The notes under the pieces were generated by a model. That model did not search any database, had not been told where the DNA came from, and was given only the letters and a program-made list of their open reading frames with translations. Positions 5,687 through 41,292 of a stretch of DNA of 45,951 bases are shown piece by piece (the first letter of the stretch is position 1; every line of letters begins with the position of its first letter). The DNA lies in contig CALUXS010000013.1 of the NCBI GenBank assembly GCA_944324805.1, positions 1-45,951 of the forward strand. The letters run 5' to 3'. A program made the translations under genes and the position numbers. This stretch comes from an uncultured Acholeplasmatales bacterium. Its GTDB lineage: Bacteria; Bacillota_I; Bacilli_A; Acholeplasmatales; Anaeroplasmataceae.

Positions 5687-6742
5687 TTATTTTATTTCTT
5701 GGAATTTTACTTCCCCTTCTAAATTAAATGTAATAATTTTAGTCGAATCAAAATGTTTTTTCATATCCACAAAACGAATCATATTATTGTCATATGTTGT
5801 CCAATAAAAACAAAGTGAATCTAAAGACATTACTGATGTATAGACAGTATAATCAAAAGGGACAACACCCTTATCCTTAGAAGTAGGCTCACCAGGATTA
5901 GAGACTAGAACCATTCCAAGAGGGAAGCTAACATTTTGCATCAATCTAAATAAATAATTCACGCCTTCTACTTCATTTTTTCCCTTTGAAGCATATTTTT
6001 TGAAAAGTGCTAATCTGACAAAACGTGATGGAGAAGTAAAGTCACCCGGTAACCCAAGCATACCACTTCCTGAAAAGCATTGTTCTAAACTAACATTTTC
6101 AATTTTTAAGGTATCATAATCTAAATTTCTTAAATTTACATAATTCAACAAATTTAGCTCATGCCATTTATAACTAGGACTATTAGTCATAACACCTATT
6201 GTCTTGTCATAAATCTTGATGCCATCAACATCTGGTTCTACAATAATATTATTACCTTTTTTATCTCCGAATATAAAATGAATTGTAGGTACTGTTCCTA
6301 AAAGTGGCTTACCTACTAGACTAATATCTTCTTCAAGCATCTTTTTAACTTCTAATACATCTTTACATGTAGCTAGAGCATGCATTACAAAAAAAGGTGG
6401 TTGCACAGGATAGGTATTTTCTTTAAGCTCTGTACTAAAATGTGCAAAATTACGGTAGTATAGTTGAGCTCCACAAAGTCCCATCTCATTCATACCCTCA
6501 TACAAAGCTGGAGTTGGCTCTAAAATTGTTGTGCCTATACCTAAAATTCTATATTTACTTTTTCTCTTATTTTCTTCTAAAAGATCATTTTCTAGTTTTG
6601 CACCCATTGTATAATATTCATAATTGTTAGGTACATATATAACACTTGTCCCTTCAGAAACTCTATTAAAATCGTAATTTCTAGCAAACAAATGTTTATT
6701 ATCTAAAGTTTCCCATAAGAATGCGCTGCAACTTTCTTTCAT
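5687..6742 (-). CDS. Linear amide C-N hydrolase (choloylglycine hydrolase / penicillin V acylase family)
   Basis: A 351-aa Ntn-hydrolase of the bile-salt hydrolase/penicillin V acylase family, which cleaves linear amide bonds with an N-terminal Cys nucleophile. The protein begins MKES-Cys, so Cys5 would be exposed after removal of a short propeptide, as in the MLG-Cys arrangement known from Bacillus penicillin V acylase. Arg21 and Asp24 in the ARNYDF motif, and the Asn in the VMTNSPSY motif (residue about 187), are the expected active-site partners. No signal peptide is seen, so it is cytoplasmic. Substrate (conjugated bile salts, penicillin V, N-acyl homoserine lactones, other acyl amides) cannot be told from sequence. 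It lies between an ABC-F gene and a MATE gene with gaps of 17 and 20 nt. Confidence 0.88.
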   Translation of the reverse strand: MKESCSAFLWETLDNKHLFARNYDFNRVSEGTSVIYVPNNYEYYTMGAKLENDLLEENKRKSKYRILGIGTTILEPTPALYEGMNEMGLCGAQLYYRNFAHFSTELKENTYPVQPPFFVMHALATCKDVLEVKKMLEEDISLVGKPLLGTVPTIHFIFGDKKGNNIIVEPDVDGIKIYDKTIGVMTNSPSYKWHELNLLNYVNLRNLDYDTLKIENVSLEQCFSGSGMLGLPGDFTSPSRFVRLALFKKYASKGKNEVEGVNYLFRLMQNVSFPLGMVLVSNPGEPTSKDKGVVPFDYTVYTSVMSLDSLCFYWTTYDNNMIRFVDMKKHFDSTKIITFNLEGEVKFQEIK

Positions 6743-8552: not shown

Positions 8553-8595
8553 TAAGCCCCTTTAGTCTATCTACTTAAGATATTCTAAAGGGGGG
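8547..8595 (-). terminator. Terminator of the 2-hydroxyacid DH/aspartate DH operon
   Basis: Stem CCCCTTTAG/CTAAAGGGG (8585-8593 with 8557-8565) is extended by an inner TATCT/AGATA helix, followed on the minus strand by CTTATTGTTT. The stem is GC-rich for this genome, so it should be stable. Confidence 0.75.
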
Positions 8596-8602: not shown

Positions 8603-9379
8603 TTAAAACATAATCGGAGATGCCAAATTTCTTAGTAGTGCAACTACACTATAACCAGCTATAATACCAGATTTTGAATACATATCTAATACAATATGAG
8701 CTGCATCATTTTTCATTTCTACCCTATGATCATCACCGACAAAATTTGGAACTGATGTAATGCTTACTAAAATATTTTCAGGTCCAACTGAAGCTAAGGA
8801 GGTAGCTACTGCTACATTTACCTTGCGAGGAAATAGATTTATCGCATCTACACCACTTCCTCTAAAAACCTCTTTTTCTACTGTTTCTAATTCTTCAGAA
8901 TAAATTGCTTTTGTATCTCTTAAAGAAGCAGGTCCTTTGTGTGTAGTGAACGTGGTTTTTGTTTCTCCCATTAAAGCAACTGTTCTTAATATATCAAATC
9001 CACCAACTGCTCCATTAGCAATGTGAATCTTTACCTCATTTTTCTTAGCCAAATTATACATTTCTTCATAAAATTTCTTATCAGCAAAAGCACCTATTGA
9101 AAGTAAAATCGCATTTGTTTTATTTTCTAATACTTTAGCTAAATTTTCCCACAAAAATTCTCTTGATGCCACTTCAATTAAATAATCTATTTTTTCAGAT
9201 AATAGACTAGATACATTCGAAAAGTATTTTGTCTTAGCAGCTTTTGCAAGCTCAGTTCCAGTTATTTCGTTACGACTATAAATACCTACTAATTCATAAT
9301 CATTTAATAAGCCTTTATTGTAGCATTCAACTACAATTTCAGCTAATTTTCCACTACCAGCTATTCCAATTCTTTTCAT
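8603..9379 (-). CDS. L-aspartate dehydrogenase-like oxidoreductase
   Basis: A 258-aa protein of the aspartate dehydrogenase (NadX/DUF108) family, which oxidises L-aspartate with NAD(P)+ to iminoaspartate. The N-terminal dinucleotide motif is GIAGSGKLAE (residues 5-14). The conserved GAVGGFDIL block lies near residue 124, KVNVAVA near 191 and the DDHRVEM segment, with the likely catalytic His, near 220. Length fits the family (about 255-270). No nadA, nadB or nadC is adjacent, so a role in NAD synthesis is not supported by context. It starts 2 nt after the upstream 2-hydroxyacid-dehydrogenase-like gene, indicating one operon and probably linked substrates. The substrate may differ from aspartate. 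Confidence 0.8.
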   Translation of the reverse strand: MKRIGIAGSGKLAEIVVECYNKGLLNDYELVGIYSRNEITGTELAKAAKTKYFSNVSSLLSEKIDYLIEVASREFLWENLAKVLENKTNAILLSIGAFADKKFYEEMYNLAKKNEVKIHIANGAVGGFDILRTVALMGETKTTFTTHKGPASLRDTKAIYSEELETVEKEVFRGSGVDAINLFPRKVNVAVATSLASVGPENILVSITSVPNFVGDDHRVEMKNDAAHIVLDMYSKSGIIAGYSVVALLRNLASPIMF

Positions 9380-9381
9380 TT

Positions 9382-10278
9382 CTATACCTCAGCAAAATAA
9401 TTTTTAATATTATCAAGCACTTTTTTATTTAATCTTTCAACTGCTTGCATTGTCATACCAGCTGATTGGTTTGCACATTTAACATTTTTATATTCTAATA
9501 ATTCCTTAGGTCCTAAAGCCATTAGTGTATCAGAGAAAAATCTATTATCTTTATTATCTAACCATTTCTTAAAAGGCTCTATATCATAGCAAGGGCTCAA
9601 TGATGTATTGAACATAATCTTGTGATTACCAAAAAGCTTAAATTCTTCTTCGTGTAATAATACGACATTCTTACTTAAACAAGAACATAAACAATCTACC
9701 TTAGGTAAAAGGTTAACTAATTCTAAATACTTTACACCCTTTTCTTCCATATCTTCTTTTCTTGTTCTACTATAGTAATATACATCGCAACCAAAATGAA
9801 GCAACGCATTAGCAACTATTTTTCCTGTCGTTCCCATTCCAAGTATACCAACTTTTAAATTTGTTAGTTCACTTGCTCTACCATAATAAAAATCATTGCC
9901 ACTATAACCATGAAGTAGCTGAACAAGTTCTGATACAACATACTCTCTAACGCCTTCATCGCCATAATCCCTAATACCTGTAACAGTTATGTTATGCTTT
10001 TCTGCATAGTCAATATCAACATTACAGCTAAATTTACTATAAAGGCTACAACACATTCCAACATATTTCAAATTAGGACATTTACTAAGAATATCCGCAC
10101 CAATTATTTGTGTATAACTAATTAGTATTGCATCTGCATCACCAATTCGTTTTACAATTTCTGAACTATCTTTTGGTAAGCTATCATAAAAAACAATTTC
10201 TTTAGCATACTTTTTTAGCTCTTCTTTACCACTTGGTAAAAAATTAACAGGTTCAATTGCAACAATCTTATTAAACAT
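9382..10278 (-). CDS. D-2-hydroxyacid dehydrogenase-like protein lacking the usual catalytic residues
   Basis: A 298-aa member of the D-isomer-specific 2-hydroxyacid dehydrogenase fold. The NAD(P)-binding motif VGILGMGTTGKIVANAL lies near residues 147-163, and SCLSKNVVLLHEEEF corresponds to the usual CLPxTxxTxxLIxxxxL strand-helix. Where active family members have NTARG, this protein has NTSLSP. Where they have DVFxxEP it has DTLMALGP, and where they have TPHIAGxT it has ANQSAGMT. The catalytic Arg, Glu and His are thus all apparently replaced. It may be a dehydrogenase with changed chemistry or a non-catalytic NAD-binding partner; the pairing with the aspartate-dehydrogenase-like gene 2 nt downstream is the main clue. 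The SD sequence is 32 nt from the ATG with a hairpin between. Confidence 0.78.
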   Translation of the reverse strand: MFNKIVAIEPVNFLPSGKEELKKYAKEIVFYDSLPKDSSEIVKRIGDADAILISYTQIIGADILSKCPNLKYVGMCCSLYSKFSCNVDIDYAEKHNITVTGIRDYGDEGVREYVVSELVQLLHGYSGNDFYYGRASELTNLKVGILGMGTTGKIVANALLHFGCDVYYYSRTRKEDMEEKGVKYLELVNLLPKVDCLCSCLSKNVVLLHEEEFKLFGNHKIMFNTSLSPCYDIEPFKKWLDNKDNRFFSDTLMALGPKELLEYKNVKCANQSAGMTMQAVERLNKKVLDNIKNYFAEV

Positions 10279-10318
10279 TTTTTTGTTAGTATTATAAAAA
10301 ATAATACTATCTCCCTTC
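10279..10318 (-). promoter_or_regulatory. Hairpin between Shine-Dalgarno and start codon
   Basis: The strong ribosome binding site GAAGGGAG (10311-10318) is 32 nt from the ATG at 10278. A perfect 9-bp stem TAGTATTAT/ATAATACTA (10301-10309 with 10287-10295) with a 5-nt loop lies between them. If the hairpin folds, the effective SD-AUG distance becomes about 9 nt. No ATG, GTG or TTG occurs in frame between SD and this ATG. Confidence 0.6.
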
Positions 10319-10403: not shown

Positions 10404-10437
10404 CAAAAAAGCCAGAGGCTTTCACACCTCTAGCTTT
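10404..10437 (-). terminator. Terminator of the perR-hydrogenase operon
   Basis: Stem AAAGCTAGAGG/CCTCTGGCTTT (10427-10437 with 10410-10420 approximately), loop about 7 nt, followed by a T run on the minus strand. It lies directly after the hydrogenase-rubrerythrin stop codon. Confidence 0.85.
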
Positions 10438-10440
10438 CTA

Positions 10441-12492
10441 TTAGTAATTAGTTTTACGTCTTTCAAAATAAGCCTTAGGATACCCACAAGTTGGACAAAC
10501 CTCAGGAGCATCAACACCAAAATGAAGGTGACCGCATTGTCTACACATCCAGAATACAGCACCATTTTCTTTAAATACTTCTCCAGCTTCTAATCTTTCT
10601 AACAATTTACGATAACGTTCTTCATGGGCTTTTTCAATTGCTCCAACACGTTCAAATTTTTCGGCTAGTTCAAAAAATCCTTCTTCCCTTGCCTCTTTTG
10701 CCATTCTTTTATACATTTCTGTCCATTCATCATTTTCACCATTAGCTGCTGATTTTAGATTATCCTTTGTATCACCAATTCCATTTAATTCTTGAAACCA
10801 CAGCTTAGCATGTTGAGATTCTTGCTCAGATGTTTCCATAAAAATATCTGCTATTTGCTCATAACCCTCTATTGATGCCTTTTGAGCAAAATATTTATAT
10901 TTATTTCTTGCTTGTGATTCTCCTGCAAAAGCTTCCTTTAAATTTTTTTCTGTCTTTGTTCCTGCATATTTTGAAGAATTACTTTTTACTTCCTCAGGTA
11001 GTTCTTCAAACATTTCAGCTCCTACTTTACAAATAGGACAAACAAAATCTTTGTCTAGAGTGTCAGCTTCATGTATATATCCACAAACACTGCATTTATA
11101 TTTTTTCATTTTCTTTTCAATTCCCTTCTTTAAATCGTTACTTCTATCAACATAGCTTGTATGTAGCATTTCTTCTGCTAGCTTACTAAGTGGTTTTTCA
11201 TAAAAATCTTTATATAATTCAATAATTTCTTTATTTTTATAAGAAACCTTTAAATCAATTTCCTTATCCTTTTTATACAAACCTTGCATTCTTTTTTTAA
11301 TAAGTTCTTTATCTTTAAAAAGTAATTCCTTTGGTTGTCCGCCACCGCCAATACATCCACCAGGACAAGTCATTACCTCGATAAAATGATATTCTTCCTT
11401 ACTATCTTCTAAGTGTTTCAAGAATTTTCTTGCTGCACTTGTAGTGGAAATAGCGGCAAATTTGATTTTTAGTCCATCTATATCAATAGCCCCAACTTTG
11501 ACATCTTCAAATCCTCTAACCGGATTAAACTCTAATAATAAATCAGACGGATCCTTTTTTGTTATTATGTTATAAGCAGTTCTTAAAGCAGCCTCCATTA
11601 CCCCACCGCTATTACCAAATAGAATTCCTGCGCCTGAAGCTAAAGACATTAAATTATCATATTCACTATCTTCTAGGCTTGAAAAATCAATTTTAGCTTC
11701 ATTAGTCCATTTAACAAGTTCTCTTGCTGTAATTACAAAATCCATGTCCTTTAAATCTTTATTGTCTAAATATTTACTAGCACTATTTAGCTCTTTTCTA
11801 TTTATTTCATACTTTTTAGCTGTACATGGTGTTAATGCAACATTAATTATTTTATTAGGATCAATCCCCATTTTCTTAGCAAAATAGGTTTTTATAGTTG
11901 GTCCTTGCATTCCAATCGGACTTTTTGCTGTTGAAAGATTAGGAATATACTTTGGATAAAATGTCTCAACATATTTTACCCAAGCCGGACAGCAACTAGT
12001 AAATTGTGGTAAACTTTTTCTTACTTCAATTCTTTTAACTAGTTCATTTGCTTCTTCCATAATCGTTAAATCAGCTGCGAAATTAGTATTTAAAACATAA
12101 TTAAATCCTAGTTTTTTAAGTAATGTTACCATTTTACCTTCAACAAAAGTACCAGGCTCCATATTAAATGCCTCACCTAAAGAAACCCTAACTGATGGAG
12201 ATGTAGATACAATTACGACTTTATCATTATTGGCAATAATGTTTTTTACTTCCTCATAATTATAACGTTCAGTTATACTATTTGTTGGACAAACATTAGC
12301 ACATTGTCCACAATTAATACAAATTGCTTCATCTAAGGTATCTTTTAGATTATAAAAACCGTGGACACTTATCTTTTCCTCACATATGTTCTTACATTGT
12401 CCACATTTAATACATAACTCTTCATTTCTAACAATTGATAAGTTATCCTTTTCAATCGCCACCCTAACATCTAGTGGCAGGTGTTTACTCAT
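10441..12492 (-). CDS. [FeFe]-hydrogenase / rubredoxin / rubrerythrin / rubredoxin fusion
   Basis: A single 683-aa chain with five redox modules in order. Residues 22-75: two [4Fe-4S] clusters (C27, C30, C33, C37; C58, C61, C64, C68). Residues 92-390: H-cluster domain with TSCCPAW (C167 proton relay, C168 ligand), TPCTAKKYE (C223) and [15 protein letters not shown] (C376, C380). Residues about 393-450: small-subunit-type tail. Residues 464-497: rubredoxin-like (C467, C470, C485, C488). Residues 513-632: rubrerythrin four-helix diiron domain (GES E525, ExxH 558/561, ExxE 589/592, ExxH 620/623). Residues 646-680: second rubredoxin (C650, C653, C666, C669). ATG 12492 is preceded by a perfect AAGGAGG; the gene overlaps perR by 8 nt. 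Electron flow from H2 through FeS and rubredoxin to a diiron peroxidase is inferred. Confidence 0.93.
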
Positions 12493-12886
12493 TTTGTTCC
12501 TCCTTCTTTTTAGCACACTCTAAGCAAAGGCCTTGAAATAACATTGTATGACTAAAGACTACAAAATTTGATGTTTTTAATAGCATTTCATCAATATCTT
12601 TTTGGTAAGTTAAATTTAAATCGATTATTTTTCCACATTTTATACAGCGTAAATGGTAATGTGGCTTTAATATTAAATCATAGTGGGTTTCCTTATCATC
12701 GGTTATGACTTTTTTTAATGTGCCCATTTCCACTTCTTGTTGCATAATTCTAAAAACTGTTGCTTTAGAAATATTAGGATAAGTTTTGTGGATAAAATTA
12801 TAAACTTCTGTAGCCGTCGGATGAGTATTTAAATCTTCGATAGCCTTTATAATTATTTGCCTTTGGAATGTGTTTCTTGTTTTCAT
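12485..12886 (-). CDS. perR: PerR-type peroxide-sensing Fur family repressor
   Basis: A 133-aa winged-helix metalloregulator. The four structural zinc cysteines are C81, C84, C121 and C124. The five regulatory ligands of Bacillus subtilis PerR (H37, D85, H91, H93, D104) map with a constant offset of 15 onto H22, D70, H76, H78 and D89. The Asp at the last position favours PerR over Fur or Zur. H22 (in THPTATEVY) is one of the residues oxidised by H2O2 when Fe is bound. The DNA-recognition helix is around residues 38-50 ([11 protein letters not shown]). It is the promoter-proximal gene of a two-gene operon with the hydrogenase-rubrerythrin fusion, and a Per-box lies on its own start site, so autoregulation and control of the fusion are likely. 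Confidence 0.9.
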
Positions 12887-27558: not shown

Positions 27559-28905
27559 CTACAAATTCTTTTTATAAATATATACATCAATACTTGCTAA
27601 AGAAATTACAAGTGGAATCATATAATAAAACATATGATAGGTATTATCAACCATACCATAAATATCAACATAAATATATCCTACTAGCATATACCAAAAG
27701 AAATACTTGTTAGTTTTAGCTAAATTTCGATATTTTTCATAAAAATGTAATAATAGCATCAACAAACCAAAAATGCCACCCATAACAATAGTTTGTACCA
27801 AAGTTGAATGATAAACAATCGGAACTAATTGGAATCCTGCTGAACTCATGTGCTCTTCTAATACTGCACAAATTCCACTTCCAAGCCACATATTTAGGCT
27901 ACTATCAGTAAATTCTTTAAAGCCCATTACCCAAAGCTCTTTTCTACCATTATCATCAAGGCCATTATAAAAAACATTATCCAAAATATTATTAATAAAA
28001 GCAACTGTTGATTTTGCATTTACTAATGCCACTAATATAAAAAGCATTAAGAAAACTATCACAAAATAAGTAAAAAATCTTCTTCTTTCTGACTTGATTA
28101 GTAACAATATTGTCGATGTAATAACTATAAATAAGAGCGCTAGATAAGAGCCTCGTGAAGTTGTTAATAAAACTCCTAAAATAGCAACTAGTAGCTTTAA
28201 GAATTCAAAAGCAATCATCTTTATACTTTTAGATGTTGCAAGCAAATAGTAAATAAAAGGAACAGAAAAGCATATCATTATTCCTGCTTCATTACATACT
28301 CCCCAACCTAAATAATAGGCAAGACTAAAAATACTTTCTGTCGTATCTTTTAATTCTATAACCTTAATTAAACACTCAAACATTAAGATAAAAACAAGAT
28401 ATGACATTACTGTTGCTAAATAGTGCAATGAAATATTTTTAATACCATTTACAAAAATAAAATAGATAAATAAATATCCTAAATCTGCAAAAAAGAAAAA
28501 ATAGAATACCTCATTTCCTGCTTCTATTGTCTTACACCAAAAGATTGGAATTAAATTCATAATTGCTAACCCAATTAAACCCCATAATGATTTCATTTTT
28601 TTAAGTTTAATTCCTTGAATACAAGTAAAAATTAGTAATACTAATACAAATATTGAAGCAACGATTATTAGTGGAATAGGAATCACATTGTTAGGAAAAC
28701 CATCTCTTATTGTAAAAACAAAAAAGATTGCAATTGGTATTATGAACTTTAAATCTTTAAGCAATATTAGTGTAAATGTTGCTAACAAAACTAAGACTAT
28801 CATTCCATTTATACTATTAAACATCCAACCTAATGCTGTTATGATTGCACAAATGAAAATGAATATTTCATCAAAAATATTATTATTTTTAACTTTTTCT
28901 AGCAT
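27559..28905 (-). CDS. O-antigen ligase/Wzy polymerase-like membrane protein, copy 1
   Basis: A 448-aa polytopic protein (about 11-12 helices) of the O-antigen ligase/Wzy family, which joins undecaprenyl-linked repeat units or transfers a finished glycan. The TTSRGSYLAL motif (near residue 246) in a large loop/helix is the family mark; VYHSTLVQTIVMGGIFGLLM near 370 is the second. It is a close paralogue of two genes at 43.2-45.95 kb; for example KMKSLWGLIGLAIMNLIPIF is identical in copy 2. The start ATG has GGAGG 9 nt upstream. It lies just after the Wzz terminator and is followed at 9 nt by the EEP gene. Confidence 0.85.
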   Translation of the reverse strand: MLEKVKNNNIFDEIFIFICAIITALGWMFNSINGMIVLVLLATFTLILLKDLKFIIPIAIFFVFTIRDGFPNNVIPIPLIIVASIFVLVLLIFTCIQGIKLKKMKSLWGLIGLAIMNLIPIFWCKTIEAGNEVFYFFFFADLGYLFIYFIFVNGIKNISLHYLATVMSYLVFILMFECLIKVIELKDTTESIFSLAYYLGWGVCNEAGIMICFSVPFIYYLLATSKSIKMIAFEFLKLLVAILGVLLTTSRGSYLALLFIVITSTILLLIKSERRRFFTYFVIVFLMLFILVALVNAKSTVAFINNILDNVFYNGLDDNGRKELWVMGFKEFTDSSLNMWLGSGICAVLEEHMSSAGFQLVPIVYHSTLVQTIVMGGIFGLLMLLLHFYEKYRNLAKTNKYFFWYMLVGYIYVDIYGMVDNTYHMFYYMIPLVISLASIDVYIYKKNL

Positions 28906-28934
28906 AACTAGCTACCTCCATAATCTATACTCGT

Positions 28935-28970
28935 AAAAATTCCCCATAAGAAACTTATGGGGTAATTTTT
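28935..28970 (-). terminator. Terminator of the Wzz-like gene
   Basis: Stem of 16 bp with one mismatch (28954-28970 with 28935-28950), AAA loop, T run on the minus strand. It separates the main polysaccharide transcript from the Wzy copy 1-EEP-lipoprotein segment, perhaps only partly. Confidence 0.85.
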
Positions 28971-30313
28971 TATTCACTTAACTTAGGAGCAGCTACCACC
29001 TTTTCTTCTTTTTTTACTTTTAAATAACCAGCAGTACCAGCTACAACCACACCAACAAATAAACCAACAAATGCACCAGCAACTAAAATCAATATTGTAC
29101 TAATACCGCCATTTGTGTCTACAATATTTGAATTTAAGTAAACAACATCTGCATCACGTGTATAAATATATTTACAAACTGAAGTATATGTTTTAGTTTC
29201 TTCCTTTAGCATTTCTTCAACACTCTTCAAACGTTCACCAAAGGCATTTGAAGCTGTTAAATCACTACTATTTATTGTTTCAATTTTCTTCTTACATGAT
29301 GTAATTTCAATTTGATTATTTACCTTTTTATTTGTTAAATCAGTTATTTGATTAACTAAATCTTTTATAGCATCTGTTACGATAATTTGATTTGAGCTAC
29401 TAGATTGTAAAATACTATCTAATTGAGTTTGTAATGCCTCAATTTTAATTTCTAGATTTTTATTTTCTTCTTCTAAACTAACAATTCTATTTTCTAAAAC
29501 TGCTTTTTCAGCTTCAGGATTTTTTACATATCCTTTCGCATTTAGCTCATTACTTAATGAATAAAATCCACTTTCTGTTAATTTATTATTTAATCTAGTT
29601 TTAAGCTGTGATAACTTATATTGAACACCACCAGTTGCATAATCAACAACTTGTTGATTGTTTAAATAAACAACAGTATCACCATACTCACTAATTAATG
29701 TTTCATATCCAGATAAAATTAAATTTACTTGATTAGTTAAAGATTCTAATTCTGTAGTGTATGATGTTGCGCTTTGCATAAGATCAAAGTTTGCATCAAA
29801 TGATAGATTATCAATTAACTCTCTATCCTTATTAATTGGATTCATAATTAAAGCATTTAAGAATTTTATTGCATCATCTTCACTATTAAATGCCTTATAA
29901 GGCGCTTTAATTAAATAATAATTCTCTAAAACTCCTGAAGTAGGATCTCCATCTTTTACGTATGTTGTTACCTCACTAATAGAAAAAGAATTTGTATTTA
30001 ATAAAGCATCTAAATCAACACTTTTAAATTCATCATTTTCCTCAACTAGCTTATTAACAGTATTACGATTAATAATATCACGATAATTAAAGGCACTACC
30101 ATCAACATATTTTCCACTAGCTAAATATGGTATATTTTCATAAGAAAATTTAACACTATAACTGATTGCACCAGGATTATAAACATATTTTAAACCTATA
30201 ACAATAAGTAAAAATAATACAACTGTAACAATCAATCCTATAATTTTTTTAGCCCATATCCATCCAAAAATCTCACCAAGACTTACGCCTTCTTCAATTT
30301 TATTATCTTCCAT
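28970..30313 (-). CDS. Wzz-like polysaccharide co-polymerase / chain-length protein
   Basis: A 447-aa protein with the bitopic Wzz/PCP plan: a short cytosolic N-terminus with GWIWAKKI just before helix 1 (residues about 14-38), a large extracellular domain rich in coiled coil (residues about 230-330), and helix 2 near the C-terminus (TILILVAGAFVGLFVGVVVA, about residue 410) with a short basic tail. It would set polymer length with the Wzy protein. No Walker motifs, so no fused tyrosine kinase. I chose ATG 30313 because GGGTG lies 5 nt upstream; a GTG at 30325 overlaps that site. Confidence 0.82.
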   Translation of the reverse strand: MEDNKIEEGVSLGEIFGWIWAKKIIGLIVTVVLFLLIVIGLKYVYNPGAISYSVKFSYENIPYLASGKYVDGSAFNYRDIINRNTVNKLVEENDEFKSVDLDALLNTNSFSISEVTTYVKDGDPTSGVLENYYLIKAPYKAFNSEDDAIKFLNALIMNPINKDRELIDNLSFDANFDLMQSATSYTTELESLTNQVNLILSGYETLISEYGDTVVYLNNQQVVDYATGGVQYKLSQLKTRLNNKLTESGFYSLSNELNAKGYVKNPEAEKAVLENRIVSLEEENKNLEIKIEALQTQLDSILQSSSSNQIIVTDAIKDLVNQITDLTNKKVNNQIEITSCKKKIETINSSDLTASNAFGERLKSVEEMLKEETKTYTSVCKYIYTRDADVVYLNSNIVDTNGGISTILILVAGAFVGLFVGVVVAGTAGYLKVKKEEKVVAAPKLSE

Positions 30314-30372
30314 ATTTTCACCCACAATTTTATTTTTTTAAGATTATACCATAATTAATATAAATATACAAC

Positions 30373-31290
30373 CTAGGCATTTAACTCCTCAATTATACCA
30401 CTTATTAGCATACATGAATTCATAAATGCTTGGTTTTCAACCTCAGATAAAACTAAAGGACTATCAACAATATAGCCTTCTTCGCCTAACAATGCTGGAG
30501 TTGATATATATATTATTTTCCCATTATATATGTAACTATGTGAATAAGGAATGCTAATTCTTTTATCATTTTTAATGCAGTCTATTAAATAAGCAGTAAC
30601 AGAGCCAATTCCATATTCTGTTGCACCTTTAACACTAAAGATATCCCAACCAGCTTGACTAACTAAAGATTTAATTTCATTTCTGTTAAATTCTATATTG
30701 TTTATTTCTAAATATTTTTCTAAATTAATGCCATATACATTGCAATTTGAATAAGCATTTACTTGAGATTCCCCATGCTCTCCAACAACAAGCGCATAAA
30801 TATCTTTAGGAGAAACATTTAATTTTTTAGATAAAACAGCCTTAAATCTAATCGAATCTAGTAAAGTCCCTGTACCAATAATTCTTTTTGATTCAATTCC
30901 TGTAATTTTATGAATAAGATATGAAATAATATCACAAGGATTAGATATATTAATAATTATTCCTTTAAAATTATCCTTATTAAAGTTTTTAAATAATGAA
31001 TATATTATTTCTTTTGTCCCTTCTAATTCCTTTAAGCGATCGCCACTGATAATTCTTTTAGATGCTGTATTAATTACAATATCACAATATAGTAAATCCT
31101 CTAAATTAGCTTTAATAAAACGAGGATTAGTATCTTCTAATAATGATGCCTGCTCTAGATCATTAATTTCTGCAATCAACTTTTTCTCATTTAAATCGTA
31201 TAAATATAATTCTGAAGCTAAATTTTTTTGAACAATCGCACTAACAACATGCGCCCCAACATGTCCTAAACCAATTACGCCTATTTTCAT
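30373..31290 (-). CDS. Lactate/malate dehydrogenase family (L-2-hydroxyacid dehydrogenase)
   Basis: A 305-aa NAD-dependent L-2-hydroxyacid dehydrogenase of the LDH/MDH fold. Rossmann motif VIGLGHVGAHV (residues 4-14), substrate-loop Arg in SGDRLKEL, NPCD near residue 127, LLDSIRF with Asp and Arg near 153-157, and the catalytic His in VVGEHGES near 181. The usual LDH/MDH specificity position lies in TASKRI, which matches neither a plain LDH (Q) nor MDH (R) context, so an L-2-hydroxyisocaproate-type substrate is possible. The stop of the HddC-GmhB gene overlaps its start as TAATG, so it is coupled to nucleotide-sugar synthesis. Confidence 0.85.
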   Translation of the reverse strand: MKIGVIGLGHVGAHVVSAIVQKNLASELYLYDLNEKKLIAEINDLEQASLLEDTNPRFIKANLEDLLYCDIVINTASKRIISGDRLKELEGTKEIIYSLFKNFNKDNFKGIIINISNPCDIISYLIHKITGIESKRIIGTGTLLDSIRFKAVLSKKLNVSPKDIYALVVGEHGESQVNAYSNCNVYGINLEKYLEINNIEFNRNEIKSLVSQAGWDIFSVKGATEYGIGSVTAYLIDCIKNDKRISIPYSHSYIYNGKIIYISTPALLGEEGYIVDSPLVLSEVENQAFMNSCMLISGIIEELNA

Positions 31291-32459
31291 TATTTATCTC
31301 CTAAAGTATCTAATATTTCGTAAGTAAAATCAACATCCTTTAATTCATAACGTGAAGGTACTAAGAATAATTTTTTTATACCTGCAGCATGAGCAGCTTC
31401 TAAATCTGTTATTTTATCTCCAATCGCTATAGAAAGCTCAGGACAAATGTTTAAATCATTTATAGCCTTCAAAAATAAACCAGGTTTCGGTTTGCGGCAT
31501 TCACAATTATCCTCAGGTTTATGTGGACAATAATAAACATTTGCTATTTTGATTCCATTCTTTAAAAATTCATCAAGCATATATGAATTTAAAGACAAAA
31601 AGTCGTTTTTAGAATATAAGCCCTTTGCTATTCCAGCTTGATTAGTAACAATTACAATTATATATCCTTTTTTAATATAGTTTTTACAAAAATCAAATAT
31701 ACCAGGTACGAATTTAAATTCTTCTTTTTTGTAAACATGACCAAAATCAATGTTTATCACACCATCTCTATCTAAAAATAATGCCTTTTTTTTAGATAAA
31801 TCCTTTTGAATCTTATCATAATCTTCAGGTATTCCTATATCAATAAAATAATCATTAGAAAGAAAAGCCCTTATATTAAGCTTATCCATGTAAACCTCAA
31901 AGAAGTCCTTTTCTAAAGAGAACTTCTTAGGAAGAGAATACTTAGAAAAAACATTCTTAGGAAGATAATATATTCCGCCATTAATATAACCTGCTTCTAC
32001 TTGCTTCTTTTCCATAAATCTTTCTATGATTCCGTTATTTATAATAACTTCACCATATCTATCAAAGTTAGTCATATATTTACAAGCAATAGCAATAGAA
32101 TTTAATTCCTTCATTTTAGCATAATCAACCTTAAATAAGGTATCTCCATTTATGATAAAAACATTATCATCAGATACTAAATCCATTGCTTTTTTGATAC
32201 ATCCTCCTGTACCTAGCGGTTCATCCTCAGTTGAATAAAGAATTTGCATTCCTTTATAATTATCCCCAAAATAATCCATTATTACTTCTTTTTTATATCC
32301 AACTGCCAAGATTACTTTATTAAAATTGTACTCTACAAGCTCATCTAAAATGTAAGTTAAAAATGGTCTATTTAAAACATCAGCCATTGGTTTAGGAACA
32401 TCCTTAACTACACTTTGAAGCCTAGTACCAAAGCCACCAGCTAAAATAATCGCTTCCAT
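31290..32459 (-). CDS. hddC-gmhB: HddC-GmhB fusion: heptose-1-P guanylyltransferase + heptose-1,7-bisphosphate phosphatase
   Basis: A 389-aa bifunctional enzyme. Residues 1-222 form a sugar-1-phosphate nucleotidyltransferase: LAGGFGTRLQ (6-15), KPMADV (23-28), LGTGG (82-86), NGDTL (104-108) and IDIGIPEDY (206-214), most like HddC (GDP-transfer to D-glycero-D-manno-heptose 1-phosphate). Residues 224-385 form a HAD-IIIA phosphatase of the GmhB type: nucleophile/acid D230/D232 in LFLDRDGVIN, VTNQAGIAKG (271-280), zinc loop C311, H313, C319, C321 followed by RKPKPG, and GDKITDLEAA (347-356). It supplies two of the four steps to GDP-heptose; GmhA and HddA are encoded at 39.5-41.2 kb. RBS AAGGAAGGGTG. 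Confidence 0.88.
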   Translation of the reverse strand: MEAIILAGGFGTRLQSVVKDVPKPMADVLNRPFLTYILDELVEYNFNKVILAVGYKKEVIMDYFGDNYKGMQILYSTEDEPLGTGGCIKKAMDLVSDDNVFIINGDTLFKVDYAKMKELNSIAIACKYMTNFDRYGEVIINNGIIERFMEKKQVEAGYINGGIYYLPKNVFSKYSLPKKFSLEKDFFEVYMDKLNIRAFLSNDYFIDIGIPEDYDKIQKDLSKKKALFLDRDGVINIDFGHVYKKEEFKFVPGIFDFCKNYIKKGYIIVIVTNQAGIAKGLYSKNDFLSLNSYMLDEFLKNGIKIANVYYCPHKPEDNCECRKPKPGLFLKAINDLNICPELSIAIGDKITDLEAAHAAGIKKLFLVPSRYELKDVDFTYEILDTLGDK

Positions 32460-32481
32460 CTAAACACCCTTCCTTCTTTAG

Positions 32482-33933
32482 TTAAAATATTTTTCTTTTT
32501 ATCATTTTAATAAAATTCTTTCTTTCAAATAAGAAAGTCATAATGCAAAAATATATTAAATACGAAATACCACCTATATAAACATTTTTAATTAAAAATG
32601 TAATAGCATAAAATCCAATAGCAATTAATAGCACATAAACTAAATTAGTAATAAAATTAAATTTCCAACGTCTAATCAAAGTAAATTCTGTTAATAAATA
32701 CCAAAATACCATAACTACAACAGAAGCTGCTGATATAGCAATTGGACTCTTAAAAATTATATAAGCTAAAAAATTAACTCCTGCTGATAATGCCAAAATA
32801 ATAATTGATTTAATAAAATAATTTTTTACTAATCCTAAAGATTTATAATAGTTTGTCATTACAACAGTTACTGCTGTATTAAATAATAATCCTGGGAATA
32901 TAACTTGAAATATCTTCAATGATTCGTTATATTGCGGTAAAAACCAATTAATTATTAGTACAAGTGGAAAATATGCTAGTAAGCAAAATGATACTATAAT
33001 AAGCATTATACCACTTAAATTAGAATATGATTTTTTTAAATCATCTTCATTTTTAGATTTTAAGGATGGATATAATACTGTTGATATTGCTGCAATAGCT
33101 GTTGTAACTAAACTTAGCATATTATACGCAAAGGCATATACCGCATAAACCTCAGTATCAAATAATATTGAAACAAACTGCCTATCAATATTTAAAATAA
33201 GATTGCCAATAATATTTGCTAATAATAACGGAAAACCTAAAGATATCAGTTCTTTAAGCAATTTTTTTTGTTCTTTAAACTTACTTACCTTACCAAATGA
33301 AATATCTCGATATAAAATTACATACCCAAATGTTAATAAGTAATTTATGACCGTAAATATCATCAAATATAACTGATAATGTATCAACCCAAAATTCAAC
33401 CATTTATATCCTACAAATAATCCTAATACGCTGATTGATAATAGGAATGAGCGTATTATATTCATTATTGTTAACTCTTTAAATCTAAATGTCATTTGTG
33501 AAACAAATTGATAGTAATTTGTTATATTATTAGAAAATAGATACAATGCTACAAATAAAAAAATGAAACCATAATTAAAATTAATGAAACAAAGAGCAAT
33601 AATCGTAACAATAATCGTTATAATTCCCTGAGTTACAAATAAAAATCTAGTGAAAAAACGAAACTTCTCTCTATCTAGGCTATCATAAGACCTACCTGCA
33701 AAGAATAGATATATTCCATCAATAATACCAAAATGAAAAAAACCAACATATCCTATATAAAGAGTATAAATCTTATAGTATCCATAATCTTCAATCCCCA
33801 TTATTTTAGGAATTAAAAACCCGACTAAAACTCCAGCTAAAATAGTTAATACATTACTGAAAGCCACCATTGCAACATTCTTCACTATTTTATTATCTTG
33901 AACATCATTTAATTCTTGATTATTTACTTCCAT
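32482..33933 (-). CDS. wzx: Wzx-type polysaccharide flippase
   Basis: A 483-aa membrane protein with about 12-14 helices of the MOP/PST polysaccharide export family, which moves undecaprenyl-diphosphate-linked repeat units across the membrane. The block LVGFLIPKIMGIEDYGYYKI (about residues 36-55) is characteristic; the central IGNLILNIDRQFVSILFDTE (about 240-260) is the second-half equivalent. Together with the Wzy-like proteins and Wzz it makes a Wzx/Wzy-dependent system. GGAGATG precedes the ATG. A 100-nt gap to the upstream GT2 gene holds AT-rich sequence with TATAAT-like elements but no convincing complete promoter or terminator. Confidence 0.9.
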   Translation of the reverse strand: MEVNNQELNDVQDNKIVKNVAMVAFSNVLTILAGVLVGFLIPKIMGIEDYGYYKIYTLYIGYVGFFHFGIIDGIYLFFAGRSYDSLDREKFRFFTRFLFVTQGIITIIVTIIALCFINFNYGFIFLFVALYLFSNNITNYYQFVSQMTFRFKELTIMNIIRSFLLSISVLGLFVGYKWLNFGLIHYQLYLMIFTVINYLLTFGYVILYRDISFGKVSKFKEQKKLLKELISLGFPLLLANIIGNLILNIDRQFVSILFDTEVYAVYAFAYNMLSLVTTAIAAISTVLYPSLKSKNEDDLKKSYSNLSGIMLIIVSFCLLAYFPLVLIINWFLPQYNESLKIFQVIFPGLLFNTAVTVVMTNYYKSLGLVKNYFIKSIIILALSAGVNFLAYIIFKSPIAISAASVVVMVFWYLLTEFTLIRRWKFNFITNLVYVLLIAIGFYAITFLIKNVYIGGISYLIYFCIMTFLFERKNFIKMIKRKIF

Positions 33934-34033
33934 AATTCATCTCCATAAATCTTAATAATTTACAATTTTGTACATATTTTATCAAGTTATACAAATTATA
34001 AAACACAATTAATATTAATTATATATACTTATA

Positions 34034-34993
34034 TTATTTCCACACACTCAAAATTTTAGGATAATTTTCTAACATTTCAGAAATAATATTATGTTTTGAT
34101 AATGTTTCTTCATATTTATTTTTTATGTTAAAAAATTTTAAAACATAAAGCCCTCTATTATATCTATAATTAAAAATTTCCAAAAATTTTTTACCATCTG
34201 CTTCACCATATGACTTAACAATACATTTTAGAGTTCCAAGCATAAACCAGTAAAATCTTCTTTCATTGAATCTAGTATCCTTTGTAAAACTTCCACCCTC
34301 TAAATGTTTAATAGTTGCATTAGGAATAGAATATACAAGACATTTAGTTTTACTCACTGCTCTATATGTAAATTCAGATTCTTCTGCATACATAAATATA
34401 TCTTCGTCAAAGCCACCAACTTCATCAATTATACTTTTTCGAATCATCATTTGAGCACCTATTATTACACCAACCTTCTTAGGTTTTTTAGTATAATTAA
34501 ACTCATAGCTGACTTGTTTTTTAAAAATTCTTCTAATTATTCTATTAAAAATATTTAAATCTTTTTTTATAAATTTAATACTAAGTAAATCATTAGAGTA
34601 AGAATGTGCAGGGGTGTTATTAAAGTCAATAACGTTGCCACCACAAATACCACAGTCTCTATTTTCTTCCATGAAACTATATAATTGATAAATAAAATTA
34701 GAGTTTATCAAAACATCAGTATTTAGCCATAAAATATATTTTCCATGAGCATATTTTAAACCTAGATTAAATCCTTTTGATGTTCCAATATTATCATTTG
34801 ATTTAACATAAATAATCTTATTATTGAATTTTTCATAAAGCCTATCGCCAGAACCATCTGGACTCGCATTATCTACCAAAATTATTTCATAACTTAAATT
34901 TTTAGTATAAGCAATAATACTATTAATTGCATCAACAGAAAAATCATATGTATTATAATTTATCATAATAATGGAAACATCAATTTGACTCAT
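34034..34993 (-). CDS. GT2 family glycosyltransferase
   Basis: A 319-aa cytoplasmic or membrane-associated inverting glycosyltransferase with GT-A fold. N-terminal VSIIMINYNTYDF (residues 6-18), LVDNASPDGSGD (39-50), and the metal-binding LNTDV near residue 94, then the acceptor-site EESEFTYRA block (about 210, ED-type catalytic acid). It is similar in outline to rhamnosyltransferases (WbbL/RfbF-like), but the sugar cannot be inferred. One nucleotide separates it from the stop of the Wzy-GT4 fusion gene, so the genes are co-translated. Confidence 0.9.
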   Translation of the reverse strand: MSQIDVSIIMINYNTYDFSVDAINSIIAYTKNLSYEIILVDNASPDGSGDRLYEKFNNKIIYVKSNDNIGTSKGFNLGLKYAHGKYILWLNTDVLINSNFIYQLYSFMEENRDCGICGGNVIDFNNTPAHSYSNDLLSIKFIKKDLNIFNRIIRRIFKKQVSYEFNYTKKPKKVGVIIGAQMMIRKSIIDEVGGFDEDIFMYAEESEFTYRAVSKTKCLVYSIPNATIKHLEGGSFTKDTRFNERRFYWFMLGTLKCIVKSYGEADGKKFLEIFNYRYNRGLYVLKFFNIKNKYEETLSKHNIISEMLENYPKILSVWK

Positions 34994-34994
34994 A

Positions 34995-37196
34995 TTAATT
35001 TAATACCTCAACTATAACTTTCTTTGTAAATATGTCCCAATCATATTTTTTTAGTAATTCACTTCTTTGTTCAACATCTAGTATTTTACCATTTTTTATT
35101 GAATCTAAGAGACTTTTTGGATCATTAGGATCAAAATAATTAGCACATTCGCCATAAACCTCATGATAAACCTTGATGTCTGATATAAAGATTTTCTTAC
35201 ATCCTAGTGAAATAGCTTCTAATGGTGTTAAACCAAAACCCTCATAAAAGCTTGGTGAAATGAAACCATCACAATTTAAATATAAGTAAGCAAGGTTTTC
35301 ATCTGTTATATATCCTGTAAAAATGACATTACTAGGAATATCAGAAAAATGATTTTCAATTTTTTCTTTTTTACCAATAACAACAAAATTTTTACTTGAA
35401 TCTAACTTTGCAGCTTCAACAATTAATTCAAAATTTTTATTTGGCAAAATAGATGAAACCGATAAATAGTAATTTTTAAATTCATGCTCAAATTTTTGAG
35501 GCTTAATGTCTAACATATGTAATGCAGATGGATTTGCGACAATAATTTGAGTTGAATCAACAATAGGCATTAATTCTAAAATTCGTTCCTTTGTGAATTG
35601 AGAAGGGGTAATTATCCTCTCATATCTACCAATATTTAAAATTGTCAAAATTCTATTCTTTAATGCCCAACTACCTTTATTGTAGTTCTTTTCAAAAAAG
35701 ATTATATCATGTATCATGACATAGCTAGGATTTAAAATAGGCGCTTGATTACCTAAATTTAATAAAATAGACTTAGGTCTAAAAATTGTATAAATAGGTA
35801 AAATTATTTGTTCCCAAAGTACCCCTTTTAAAAATCCAATCTTTAATATCTCTATTCCACCTATACTATCTTCTTTTACAGTTTTAGGTGCTAATATAAT
35901 ATATTTTTTATCATTATCAAATTTTTTTATTCGTTTAACAAATTCACAACATAGTCTTTGAATTCCTGTCCTTGGTTGAGTTAAAAATAAGCCATTAATA
36001 TAAACTGTTTTAATATTAGAAACTGTTTTATTTGACCAAACATCAGCTAAAGAGATTCCGATAAATAACCATAAATAAAGTCTCAAATAGTTTTGATTTG
36101 CTTGTAGTGTTATTAAGAAAATAATCAAAGCGAAAATCGCTGCGTAACTATTTTTAGTAGAAAATAATTTGTATAGAATCACACCAGGAATAAAATAAAA
36201 GCCTATTAAGCCAACTATTCCTGTTGTAGATAAAATTTCAAGTGTAATATTAGTAGGTTGATATGTACTAGGTTGTCCTAAAAATACATTGTAATTATTT
36301 GGACCTACACCAAATATTGGTCTATTTAAAAACATTTCCCATGACTCTTTATAATGATTAAATCTATCGCCACCGGCTTCAAATATTCCATCATTAAATA
36401 TGCGCATGAAGAAAGTTTCAAAAATATGGGGAGTAAAAATTGCCATCATTACAATAGCTATTATTCCTAAAGAAACTATTCCACCAATGACGCCTATTCT
36501 AATTTTGAAAGCAACCTTTTTTTGGAATAAAAAGAATATTATTCCGCAAAGGTATATTAAACCTACTGCTAAAAAAGCAGTTGATGATGTAGTCATGCAC
36601 ATTAAAAGTGTCATAAATATAGCATCAAAAATATACTTTTTATCTAAATCAACTAATAATTTATAAATTGAATATGCTAACCAAAAAGATAGGTATGTAG
36701 CCAAATAACTAGGTTCATAAAACCAAAGAGCCGGTCTATAAATACCTAAATGTTCTTGGTGAACTAAGAATGGTAAGTCATAATTAAATACCCATAACAT
36801 AATTGTTTGAATAACAATTAATCCACCAACAATCAAAAAGGAAAGTCGAATTATTTTTTCAGCCTTTGCTTTCCCCACTAGCTTGATATATGATGCTACT
36901 ACAAATACTATTAGAAATAGGTTATAGCACATCCATAAAAAATAGCTCAAACTATTTTTTATATTTAAACCAAATATCATTGATAAAAACATCCCAACTC
37001 CAAATGGTATAAAGTAACTAAACTTTTTAAAACTATATGCTCTTAAAAATATTAGATTAATAAAAGCTAAAGGAAATATAAATTGTACTAAGCGAATAGT
37101 CATATTATTTATACTAAAGCTTAAGGAATCCCCACCAATGAAAACTAAACATAATACCATTAAAATATCTAAACTAATTAATAAGTTCTTTTTCAT
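34995..37196 (-). CDS. Fusion of O-antigen polymerase/ligase (Wzy-like) and GT4 glycosyltransferase
   Basis: A 733-aa protein. Residues 1 to about 395 hold about 10-11 transmembrane helices of the O-antigen ligase/Wzy family, with GVGPNNYNVFLGQPS near 300 and TNITLEILSTTGIVGLIGF near 320. From about residue 400 (SNIKTVYINGLFL) the chain is a soluble GT-B enzyme of family GT4: RTGIQRL near the start, LSVSSILPNKNFELIVEAA (about 590) and FYEGFGLTPLEAISLG (about 665, the E-x7-E type motif). Both halves look complete. ATG 37196 has AGGAGG 8 nt upstream and overlaps the previous stop as ATGA; a GTG 9 nt upstream is unlikely. No frame break is seen at the junction. Confidence 0.88.
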   Translation of the reverse strand: MKKNLLISLDILMVLCLVFIGGDSLSFSINNMTIRLVQFIFPLAFINLIFLRAYSFKKFSYFIPFGVGMFLSMIFGLNIKNSLSYFLWMCYNLFLIVFVVASYIKLVGKAKAEKIIRLSFLIVGGLIVIQTIMLWVFNYDLPFLVHQEHLGIYRPALWFYEPSYLATYLSFWLAYSIYKLLVDLDKKYIFDAIFMTLLMCMTTSSTAFLAVGLIYLCGIIFFLFQKKVAFKIRIGVIGGIVSLGIIAIVMMAIFTPHIFETFFMRIFNDGIFEAGGDRFNHYKESWEMFLNRPIFGVGPNNYNVFLGQPSTYQPTNITLEILSTTGIVGLIGFYFIPGVILYKLFSTKNSYAAIFALIIFLITLQANQNYLRLYLWLFIGISLADVWSNKTVSNIKTVYINGLFLTQPRTGIQRLCCEFVKRIKKFDNDKKYIILAPKTVKEDSIGGIEILKIGFLKGVLWEQIILPIYTIFRPKSILLNLGNQAPILNPSYVMIHDIIFFEKNYNKGSWALKNRILTILNIGRYERIITPSQFTKERILELMPIVDSTQIIVANPSALHMLDIKPQKFEHEFKNYYLSVSSILPNKNFELIVEAAKLDSSKNFVVIGKKEKIENHFSDIPSNVIFTGYITDENLAYLYLNCDGFISPSFYEGFGLTPLEAISLGCKKIFISDIKVYHEVYGECANYFDPNDPKSLLDSIKNGKILDVEQRSELLKKYDWDIFTKKVIVEVLN

Positions 37197-38209
37197 TGTA
37201 AGCACCTCCTAATCTCAGAAAAAATACTATTAACAACAAATTCGAAACAATAGTTATTAAGTTCAATACTTTCAACATCTTTAGGAGCCTCTAAAAGCTT
37301 ATTAGCTAAATCTTCTATGCCAGAAAAAAATATAACCGGATATTTTTCATATATTTCTTTAAATACCTGAATGTTAGAGATAATTGGTACTGTCTTAAGA
37401 TATAAAGCTTCTAATGGTGGTAATCCAAAACCTTCATACAAGCTTGGTTGAACTAGATATTTAGCCTTTCTAATTATTAAAAACAGTTCATCATCAGAAA
37501 TTTTACCAGTAAAACTAACTCCTGGTAAATTTAAATACTTGTTTAATTCTTCATCTTTTGTTTTATGATTATTACTTCCAATTATAAAAAGTTTTAAAGA
37601 ATTATCCACATTTCTAGCCTTTTCAAAAGCTTTTAGTAATGTAATTATATTTTTATTTTTCTTTAAGTTACCAACAAATACAATACTATTATCCTTTTCT
37701 ATTTCCTTATTATTTGCATTAAGAACATTTTTGGCTAACCCTGTATAAGTGATAATAATATTTTTGGTCTTAGGAAAATAGTGTTTTATTCTTTCTTTTG
37801 AAAAATTAGATACTGTAAAAATAGCTCTACTTATTTTTGTAGCTCTTTTTAGTAAGTATTTTTTTATTCTATAATCTAAATAGTTGTTTGTCGTAGTCCT
37901 ATCGTCTAAGAAAATAACATCGTGGATTGTAGAAAAAATTGGTATTTTTATACCAAATGGAATAATAAAATTTGGTGTAAAAAAACAATCATATTTATTT
38001 ATTTCTTTTGCTCCTTCAAATAAAGCCTTAGGAGAAAATGGAGATAAAGTACATTCAATAATATTATTGGTTTCAACATATTTTTTTATTTTATTAGAAT
38101 CGCCATAATATATATATTCATGATCACTAGGTAATTTTTCAATAATTCCTTCTAAATATCGACCAATACCTGATAATCCTAAGTATCGACAATCAATTAC
38201 TACTTTCAT
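37193..38209 (-). CDS. GT4 family glycosyltransferase
   Basis: A 338-aa GT-B retaining glycosyltransferase. N-terminal CRYLGLSGIGRYLEGI (residues 7-22) is the nucleotide-sugar-side glycine loop; FVGNLKKNKNIITLLKAFEK (about 177-196) and the YEGFGLPPLEA E-x7-E motif (about 261-271) are clear GT4 marks. Resembles mannosyltransferase-type enzymes acting after the first sugar, but the donor is not predictable. It overlaps the upstream GT4 gene by 17 nt and the downstream fusion gene by 4 nt (ATGA), so three transferase genes form one translational unit. Confidence 0.9.
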   Translation of the reverse strand: MKVVIDCRYLGLSGIGRYLEGIIEKLPSDHEYIYYGDSNKIKKYVETNNIIECTLSPFSPKALFEGAKEINKYDCFFTPNFIIPFGIKIPIFSTIHDVIFLDDRTTTNNYLDYRIKKYLLKRATKISRAIFTVSNFSKERIKHYFPKTKNIIITYTGLAKNVLNANNKEIEKDNSIVFVGNLKKNKNIITLLKAFEKARNVDNSLKLFIIGSNNHKTKDEELNKYLNLPGVSFTGKISDDELFLIIRKAKYLVQPSLYEGFGLPPLEALYLKTVPIISNIQVFKEIYEKYPVIFFSGIEDLANKLLEAPKDVESIELNNYCFEFVVNSIFSEIRRCLQ

Positions 38210-39338
38210 TTTTTGTCTCCTCTTCTAATAGTTCTAATACATTTTCTTTAAATTTATTGAATAAGAAATTTTCATAAACTCGCATTCTAGCATTATTACC
38301 AAGCTCCTCACGAAGTTTATCATCCTCTAATAATTTATTAATTGCTTTTGCAAGCTCTTTATAATTAGAGTTTTCTACCTCAAGTCCAGTAACATTATTT
38401 ATAGACACATAGTTAACACCACTACCTTCAATAGTAAATGTTACAGCAGGACGTCCAAAATACATACCTTCAGCTAATGATAAACCAAAAGCCTCATTTT
38501 TTGTAATAGACGGGAATGCATATATGTCCATTGCTAGTAAATATCCTTTTAAATCCTCATCAGATATTCTACCTAAAAAATGTATATTATCATATCTATT
38601 GGCTGCTGATTTTAATTCATCCGTTAAAGGCCCTTTTCCCCCAATTAATATTACTGCATCTTTATTAATTAATTCTGCGGATTCAACTAAATAGATTAAA
38701 CCTTTATACTTTACATGACGTCCAAAGGCAAAAATTATTTTTTTATTTTCATATTGCTCCTTGATTTTTTTTGCCTTTATCTTGTCTTCTTCAGTAACAT
38801 ATAAACGCTCTTCATTTATACAACTTGGTATAACTTTTACCTTATCGCTATGTTTCTTTAAATTTTCACTAAATTGTGGATAAATAGGTGAAGTTGATAT
38901 TATAACCTCAGCTCTATTAAGTAACCATTTTGTCTGTCTCGTTAATAAAAAAGAAACTGATTTTTGTTTTATAATATCAGCATGATACCATAAAACTAAT
39001 TTACATTTTTTTCTTAATAAAATTTTTCTTAAATAATGTGATACGTATGGATTTGGATAATGAAAAATGACTATATCTGGATTAAAATTGTTAATAATTT
39101 CTTTCAATTTTTTAGGATAACTAAAAGAAATAGATTGTGATGCAATTTTTTTCCAAACCCCACACTTTGTAACCTCAATATCATCAATTATTTCAATCTT
39201 ATCTTCACTATTTTCACTAAAACAAATTACTTTTTGTTCAAACTTATTCTTGCATGACTCAACAATATCATGGCATGTTTGTTCTATGCCGCCAATATGT
39301 GGTTTATAATAATTTGGAATATGTAATATTTTTTGCAT
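38193..39338 (-). CDS. GT4 family glycosyltransferase
   Basis: A 381-aa GT-B glycosyltransferase. N-terminal ILHIPNYYKPHIGGIEQTCH (residues 4-23) includes the Gly-Gly donor loop; AFGRHVKYKGLIYLVESAEL (about 205-225) and NEAFGLSLAEGMYFGRPAV (about 283-301, E-x7-E) are GT4 motifs. Closest in style to the GT4 enzymes that transfer mannose or heptose-like sugars, so it is a candidate GDP-heptose transferase, but this is inference only. Start placed at ATG 39338, 7 nt after GAGGTG; the in-frame GTG at 39347 is itself in that ribosome binding site. First gene after the long-loop terminator-like hairpin. Confidence 0.9.
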   Translation of the reverse strand: MQKILHIPNYYKPHIGGIEQTCHDIVESCKNKFEQKVICFSENSEDKIEIIDDIEVTKCGVWKKIASQSISFSYPKKLKEIINNFNPDIVIFHYPNPYVSHYLRKILLRKKCKLVLWYHADIIKQKSVSFLLTRQTKWLLNRAEVIISTSPIYPQFSENLKKHSDKVKVIPSCINEERLYVTEEDKIKAKKIKEQYENKKIIFAFGRHVKYKGLIYLVESAELINKDAVILIGGKGPLTDELKSAANRYDNIHFLGRISDEDLKGYLLAMDIYAFPSITKNEAFGLSLAEGMYFGRPAVTFTIEGSGVNYVSINNVTGLEVENSNYKELAKAINKLLEDDKLREELGNNARMRVYENFLFNKFKENVLELLEEETKNESSN

Positions 39339-39441
39339 TTTTATCACCTCAACGCATAATAAACCACTTTATTTTAGCATATTTAGAATACAAATAATAT
39401 ACCTATACAAATTTATACATAATTTTACACAATTTTACCAT

Positions 39442-39519
39442 AAAAAAACTCTAAGGCATAAAATAACCCTAGAAACCTTTCATATAAAAAGTATCTATTA
39501 ATTATTATCCTTAGAGTTT
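39442..39519 (-). terminator. Terminator-like hairpin with a 52-nt loop after gmhA
   Basis: Arms AAACTCTAAGG/CCTTAGAGTTT (39509-39519 with 39446-39456) are perfect over 11 bp and are followed by a T run on the minus strand, but enclose 52 nt. The 179-nt interval between gmhA and the GT4 gene otherwise shows only AT-rich sequence with no convincing promoter. Confidence 0.55.
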
Positions 39520-39526
39520 AATAGTA

Positions 39527-41183: not shown

Positions 41184-41212
41184 AATAATATCCTCCTTTA
41201 ATAATAACCTCT

Positions 41213-41218: not shown

Positions 41219-41228
41219 ATAGCATAAA

Positions 41229-41261: not shown

Positions 41262-41292
41262 ACAAAAAATCACATAATTTGATAAAATATTT

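Follow-up and report, generated by a model that had tools for sequence, protein, structure and literature searches.

Two adjacent genes in a 45,951-nt stretch of DNA from an uncultured Acholeplasmatales bacterium (hereafter the window) encode HDH, a protein with the D-2-hydroxyacid dehydrogenase (D2HDH) fold that lacks the catalytic Arg, Glu and His, and ADH, an aspartate dehydrogenase (AspDH) homologue. We are almost certain that HDH and ADH form a functional pair. The two genes are kept together across distant bacteria and therefore probably act in one reaction sequence. As judged from the alignments, the loss of the catalytic triad is conserved anatomy of the HDH family, and the active site is rebuilt, not decayed.

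Organisation of the HDH and ADH genes

HDH (298 aa) is encoded at positions 9382-10278 on the minus strand and leads the operon; ADH (258 aa; 8603-9379, minus strand) comes second, 2 nt downstream. An earlier reading of the DNA (the sequence-only reading) had given two genes at 8603-10278 that are 2 nt apart, with HDH as the upstream one, and we found both open reading frames at these positions, on the minus strand and with this spacing and order. A terminator-like hairpin (10406-10439, minus strand; z -6.75) sets the pair apart from the upstream gene, and a strong hairpin directly after ADH (8557-8593, minus strand; z -4.38), which is absent from the consensus terminator list, is the probable transcript end. 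Because of these two hairpins, the pair looks like a free-standing two-gene transcript. In addition, the interval from a GGGAG motif to the HDH start codon (ATG) contains a perfect dyad with 9-bp arms and a loop of 5 nt (10287-10309, minus strand), of which no second copy was found in the genome at up to one mismatch. This element could be an operator, a structured leader or a hairpin that sets the spacing of the ribosome site. An Rfam scan of the whole window gave a tRNA at 88-169 as the only match.

Several other genes in the window were noted. A 691-aa open reading frame (10441-12516, minus strand) combines ferredoxin-type, large and small [FeFe]-hydrogenase, rubredoxin-like and rubrerythrin domains and is a possible hydrogen-linked peroxide reductase. 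A protein of the choloylglycine hydrolase family (5687-6742, minus strand) adjoins what by sight is a MATE-like transporter. Also judged by sight, positions 27559-45881 harbour a gene cluster of polysaccharide type, in which three membrane proteins (27559-28905, 43247-44656 and 44631-45881) are O-antigen-ligase-like and resemble one another.

The active sites of HDH and ADH

HDH belongs to the D2HDH superfamily, as it scored above the gathering thresholds of the Pfam families 2-Hacid_dh (64.5 versus 24.6 bits) and 2-Hacid_dh_C (58.1 versus 25.1 bits). Against the named D2HDH equivalogs of NCBIfam its best score of 76 bits stayed below the cut-off (389 bits), and none of five HDH homologues passed the cut-off of any named NCBIfam enzyme. 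Active-site positions were taken from HMMER alignments to solved D2HDHs. The triad positions lie within residues 224-271 (9466-9609, minus strand; counted from the start of the open reading frame), where Arg is replaced by L227, Glu by L255 and His by Q271. The sequence-only reading had likewise described a replaced triad with Gln in place of His. Its Leu/Ser at the Arg position could be narrowed to L227, and its Ala at the Glu position proved to be one residue off, while the loss of the Glu itself was borne out. None of 42 homologues carries the catalytic Arg, Glu or His at the aligned columns, so that the triad is absent throughout the family. The Arg column holds Ile (40 rows) or Leu (2), the Glu column Val (21), Ile (10), Leu (7), Ala (2), Phe (1) or Ser (1), and the His column Val (17), Arg (11), Ala (7), Gln (2), other residues and one gap. 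Such family-wide conservation rules out chance, a frameshift or a sequencing error as the cause of the loss.

The glycines of the GxGxxG nucleotide motif (G147, G149 and G152) are present in 42 of 42 rows, in agreement with the earlier description of this motif as intact. Moreover, a different set of residues is conserved. S78, Y80, N86, D104, Y105, D107, E112, N224, T225, W239 and D250 are invariant in all 42 rows, C76, C77, R103, R171, K174 and G256 are found in 41, and K203 in 39, with Arg in the other three. The new signature of the family comprises the CCSLYS and RDYGD loops, K203, NTS-I-GP, W239 and D250. Residues 75-107 (MCCSLYS...N and GIRDYGD; 9958-10056, minus strand) form the rebuilt cleft loops, and the AlphaFold model of HDH (pLDDT 92.2) is weakest near residues 71-90 and 101-110, which correspond to these loops. 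R103 and K203 would be the likeliest stand-ins for the lost Arg and for the base, and R103 may represent the carboxylate-binding Arg at a new position. The position of E112 presumably holds a Glu in ordinary D2HDHs as well, and therefore E112 is not a relocated triad member.

The sequence-only reading had suggested either a new reaction or a regulatory subunit. A new reaction is well supported, with the triad gone family-wide and a different invariant set present. Two points make a purely regulatory HDH less likely: the cofactor motif and the cleft residues are invariant, and either gene is found alone in some genomes. HDH is likely an active enzyme. The signature is least well kept in the HDH of one locus (L073, 8364-9257; C76S, R103K, G101Y and G256P), in whose genome no ADH was detected and which possibly represents an offshoot with a different function. 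The remaining rows with HDH only retain the positions that are changed in L073.

HDH shares its fold, the GxGxxG motif and the cofactor motif YYSRTRK with glyoxylate reductase PH0597 (2dbq) and other D2HDHs, which in contrast to HDH have the Arg/Glu/His triad. The structure of PH0597 was solved with NADP, and its YYSRTRK segment is the same as that of HDH, in which R171 and K174 are nearly invariant. The motif points to NADP(H) as the rather probable cofactor and makes the earlier label 'NAD-dependent' doubtful for HDH.

ADH scored above the cut-offs of Pfam Asp_DH_C (51.4 versus 27 bits) and NAD_binding_3 (48.9 versus 24 bits). However, ADH was below every NCBIfam cut-off for aspartate dehydrogenase (best score 158.5 versus 267), as were five of five homologues. 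The best structural matches of its model (pLDDT 91.0) are the NadX proteins TM1643 (1h2h/1j5p) and A. fulgidus AspDH (2dc1), with which ADH shares the fold, most of the C-terminal domain and 22-26% identity (TM ~0.8). N188, the Asn of NVNVA, is kept in 35 of 35 ADH rows. The His of the NIH position of TM1643, which we take to be catalytic, is present in the window protein and in 24 of the 35 rows in total, with Gln or Tyr in the other 11. The NPKTS stretch of TM1643 is missing in ADH, and an invariant GD pair stands in place of the Asn region. Because of the missing stretch, the GD pair and the variable His, ADH has also moved away from classical AspDH, and the rows in which Gln or Tyr replaces this His suggest that its chemistry may have changed too. 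The ADH family, like the HDH family, thus retains its nucleotide motif but has other conserved positions rebuilt.

Linkage, co-occurrence and evolutionary history

In a first scan we found ADH adjacent to HDH in 22 of 24 orthologous loci; a 25th locus (L025, a distant D2HDH with a 23% match) was left out of all counts. In one of the two others (L002) only an ADH fragment was found, on another contig of the genome, and the HDH locus L024 is close to a contig end. Among 100 relatives, 29 matched HDH, from which the window's own copy and 10 others were counted as orthologues (E < 1e-70). In these 11 genomes ADH was adjacent in seven, on another contig in two (G010 and G020) and not found in two (G011 and G019). 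None of the 100 relatives had ADH alone. In a sample of 81 genomes from the spirochaete family, which overlaps the first scan in part, 15 had HDH, 18 had ADH and 14 had both, always adjacent. The linkage check named in the sequence-only reading was thus positive, with adjacency in 22/24 loci of the first scan and in 14/15 and 7/11 HDH-bearing genomes of the spirochaete-family sample and the relatives, respectively.

Co-occurrence was tested in both samples. Among the 100 relatives there were nine genomes with both genes, two with HDH only, none with ADH only and 89 with neither (Fisher p 3e-11, kinship ignored), and among the 81 spirochaete-family genomes 14, one, four and 62, respectively (p 2e-11, kinship ignored). 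HDH without a detected ADH was seen in G011, G019, G423, G451 and G777, and in G707 no ADH lies within 12 kb. ADH without HDH was seen in G730, G808, G815 and G759, and the G759 copy is located at a contig end. Some of these genomes with one gene only, and several in the whole set, are incomplete bins, and the open reading frames of the loci were picked mechanically (longest, with little overlap). In L102 (4351-6747), a lone HDH and a class I/II aminotransferase gene are arranged divergently.

Three arrangements of the pair were observed: an ADH-HDH tandem in spirochaetes and some Bacilli, an HDH-ADH tandem in the window, and divergent genes in the window's own family. The linkage outlasts gene rearrangement, which argues for a common function. 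Within the genus of the window, seven further genomes lack the pair, and in both the HDH and the ADH tree the window copy is on a long branch and does not fall within its own family's clade. Horizontal spread of the pair is likely, with the exact placement unsure given the long branches. The distance matrices of HDH and ADH correlated with r 0.97 over 33 loci, with r 0.36 within 22 spirochaete rows (3 of 2000 permutations were as high) and with r 0.92 within 10 Bacilli rows, all uncorrected for the species tree. L009, a near-copy of L008, and a second D2HDH open reading frame in L013 were dropped from the alignments, and L022, which is identical to L101, was excluded from the within-spirochaete correlation.

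Possible function of the pair

Bsp5 (6p2i), by its entry title an acyclic imino-acid reductase solved with NADPH and D-Arg, came first for HDH in both Foldseek and VIA-align (VIA-align Z 26.2, 3.4 Å, 281 aligned), tied with many D2HDHs. Like HDH, Bsp5 has the D2HDH fold and has lost the Glu and His of the triad, with Tyr and Gly in their places in a phmmer alignment. Unlike HDH, it retains the Arg (NTCRGN), which is Leu or Ile in the HDH family; the Bsp5-type signature of a lost Glu and His with a retained Arg is therefore not that of HDH, in which Arg is also gone. The identity is ~20%, and Bsp5 has neither the CCSLYS insertion nor the RDYGD loop. Going by the title of the Bsp5 paper (Guo et al. 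2019, JACS), the partner of Bsp5 is reportedly an oxidase, whereas that of HDH is an AspDH homologue.

We propose that HDH and ADH are both active NADP(H) oxidoreductases with a common unstable intermediate. ADH would most likely convert an amino acid to the imino acid and back, and HDH would be a Bsp5-like imino-acid reductase or dehydrogenase. Such chemistry would need no general-acid His/Glu pair in HDH because the imine is already protonated. Together the two enzymes would exchange hydride via the cofactor and either invert the stereochemistry of an amino acid without PLP or relay the imino acid before it is hydrolysed. Bsp5 is, by analogy, a precedent for a D2HDH fold that sheds its acid-base pair on turning to imines, and imino acids are what a partner of the AspDH type would naturally produce or consume; these two points, together with the YYSRTRK motif, are the reason that we favour two active NADP(H) enzymes with a common imino acid. 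Counting against this model are the tie within which Bsp5 leads, its Arg, which is absent from the HDH family, and the 11 ADH rows with a replaced His. Imine chemistry is a serious possibility that falls a little short of probable. The model as a whole reaches beyond linkage and conservation and is put forward tentatively, and inversion of an amino acid by the pair appears unlikely. As HDH or ADH occurs alone in some genomes, a relay between them would not be obligatory.

A role of ADH as NadX that supplies NAD synthesis, with HDH as a bystander, would fit the resemblance of ADH to the AspDH family. The sequence-only reading had stated that no NAD-biosynthesis genes are nearby, which holds locally but not genome-wide. 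Another contig (C6) of the window's genome carries consecutive genes for NadA, for an FAD_binding_2 protein and for a protein that has both QRPTase domains (nadC), and behind them one for a 3H-domain regulator; by context the FAD_binding_2 protein would be NadB-like and the regulator a putative NiaR. As the genome has its own nadA/nadC operon, ADH is not needed for NAD. In addition, NadA was present in nine and absent in 17 of 26 genomes that hold the pair or its HDH, and it was absent from all ten spirochaete genomes tested. With the scores below the NadX cut-offs, these results led us to reject this role, which we consider extremely improbable.

Gene neighbourhoods were compared as well. In five spirochaete loci the pair is flanked by a cluster of LarA, aminotransferase and amino-acid ABC transporter genes. 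LarA and HDH did not co-occur better than chance in the 81 genomes (2/15 versus 6/66, p 0.64, kinship ignored), and we rejected this cluster as a pathway partner; the co-occurrence of LarA with ADH was weak (4/18 versus 4/63, p 0.07, kinship ignored). The neighbours of the pair in Bacilli loci vary and indicate no substrate: they include a PTS, the 6-phospho-muramidase MupG and a Na/H exchanger in L071 and, by sight, uronate-type genes in L072.

The LarA and aminotransferase genes beside the pair, together with the aminotransferase next to the lone HDH of L102, would also suit an HDH that is an oxidoreductase of oxo and hydroxy acids and relies on substitute catalytic residues (such as K203 and D250, or C76), with ADH aminating the same 2-oxo acid and no imine involved. 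The fold and the cofactor motif that HDH shares with D2HDHs are consistent with this. However, the LarA link fails in co-occurrence, and the usual D2HDH mechanism of ketone reduction is hard to square with the loss of His and Glu, so that we regard this alternative as possible but rather unlikely. Tight linkage and correlated evolution, as well as the missing NPKTS stretch of ADH, could alternatively reflect an obligate hetero-oligomer in which HDH completes the active site of ADH and has little catalysis of its own. Against this stand the genomes with either gene alone, the two relatives in which the genes are on different contigs, and the intact nucleotide motif of HDH, and we find it improbable. 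More improbable still is an HDH without any catalysis that serves as a regulatory subunit and senses NADP(H): a triad lost in 42 of 42 homologues beside an intact nucleotide motif would fit such a protein, but the invariant polar residues in the cleft loops and at positions 203, 239 and 250 suggest substrate handling, and some genomes have HDH but no detected ADH.

In a literature search of an open library at the level of titles and listings, the pair was undescribed among the results. The Pfam-based names 2-hydroxyacid dehydrogenase and aspartate dehydrogenase are probably misleading for both genes. The most far-reaching form of the model would be a PLP-independent, redox-neutral stereoinversion of amino acids, in which ADH oxidises one enantiomer to the imino acid, HDH reduces this to the other, and the hydride is recycled through a single NADP(H) pool, with the two genes moving between Bacilli and Spirochaetota as a mobile cassette; this we regard as distinctly unlikely. 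The HDH family offers a clean case in which to study how a dehydrogenase fold might trade carbonyl for imine chemistry by losing its acid-base pair, and HDH and ADH are a small, assayable pair and a candidate for cofactor-recycling amino-acid inversion.
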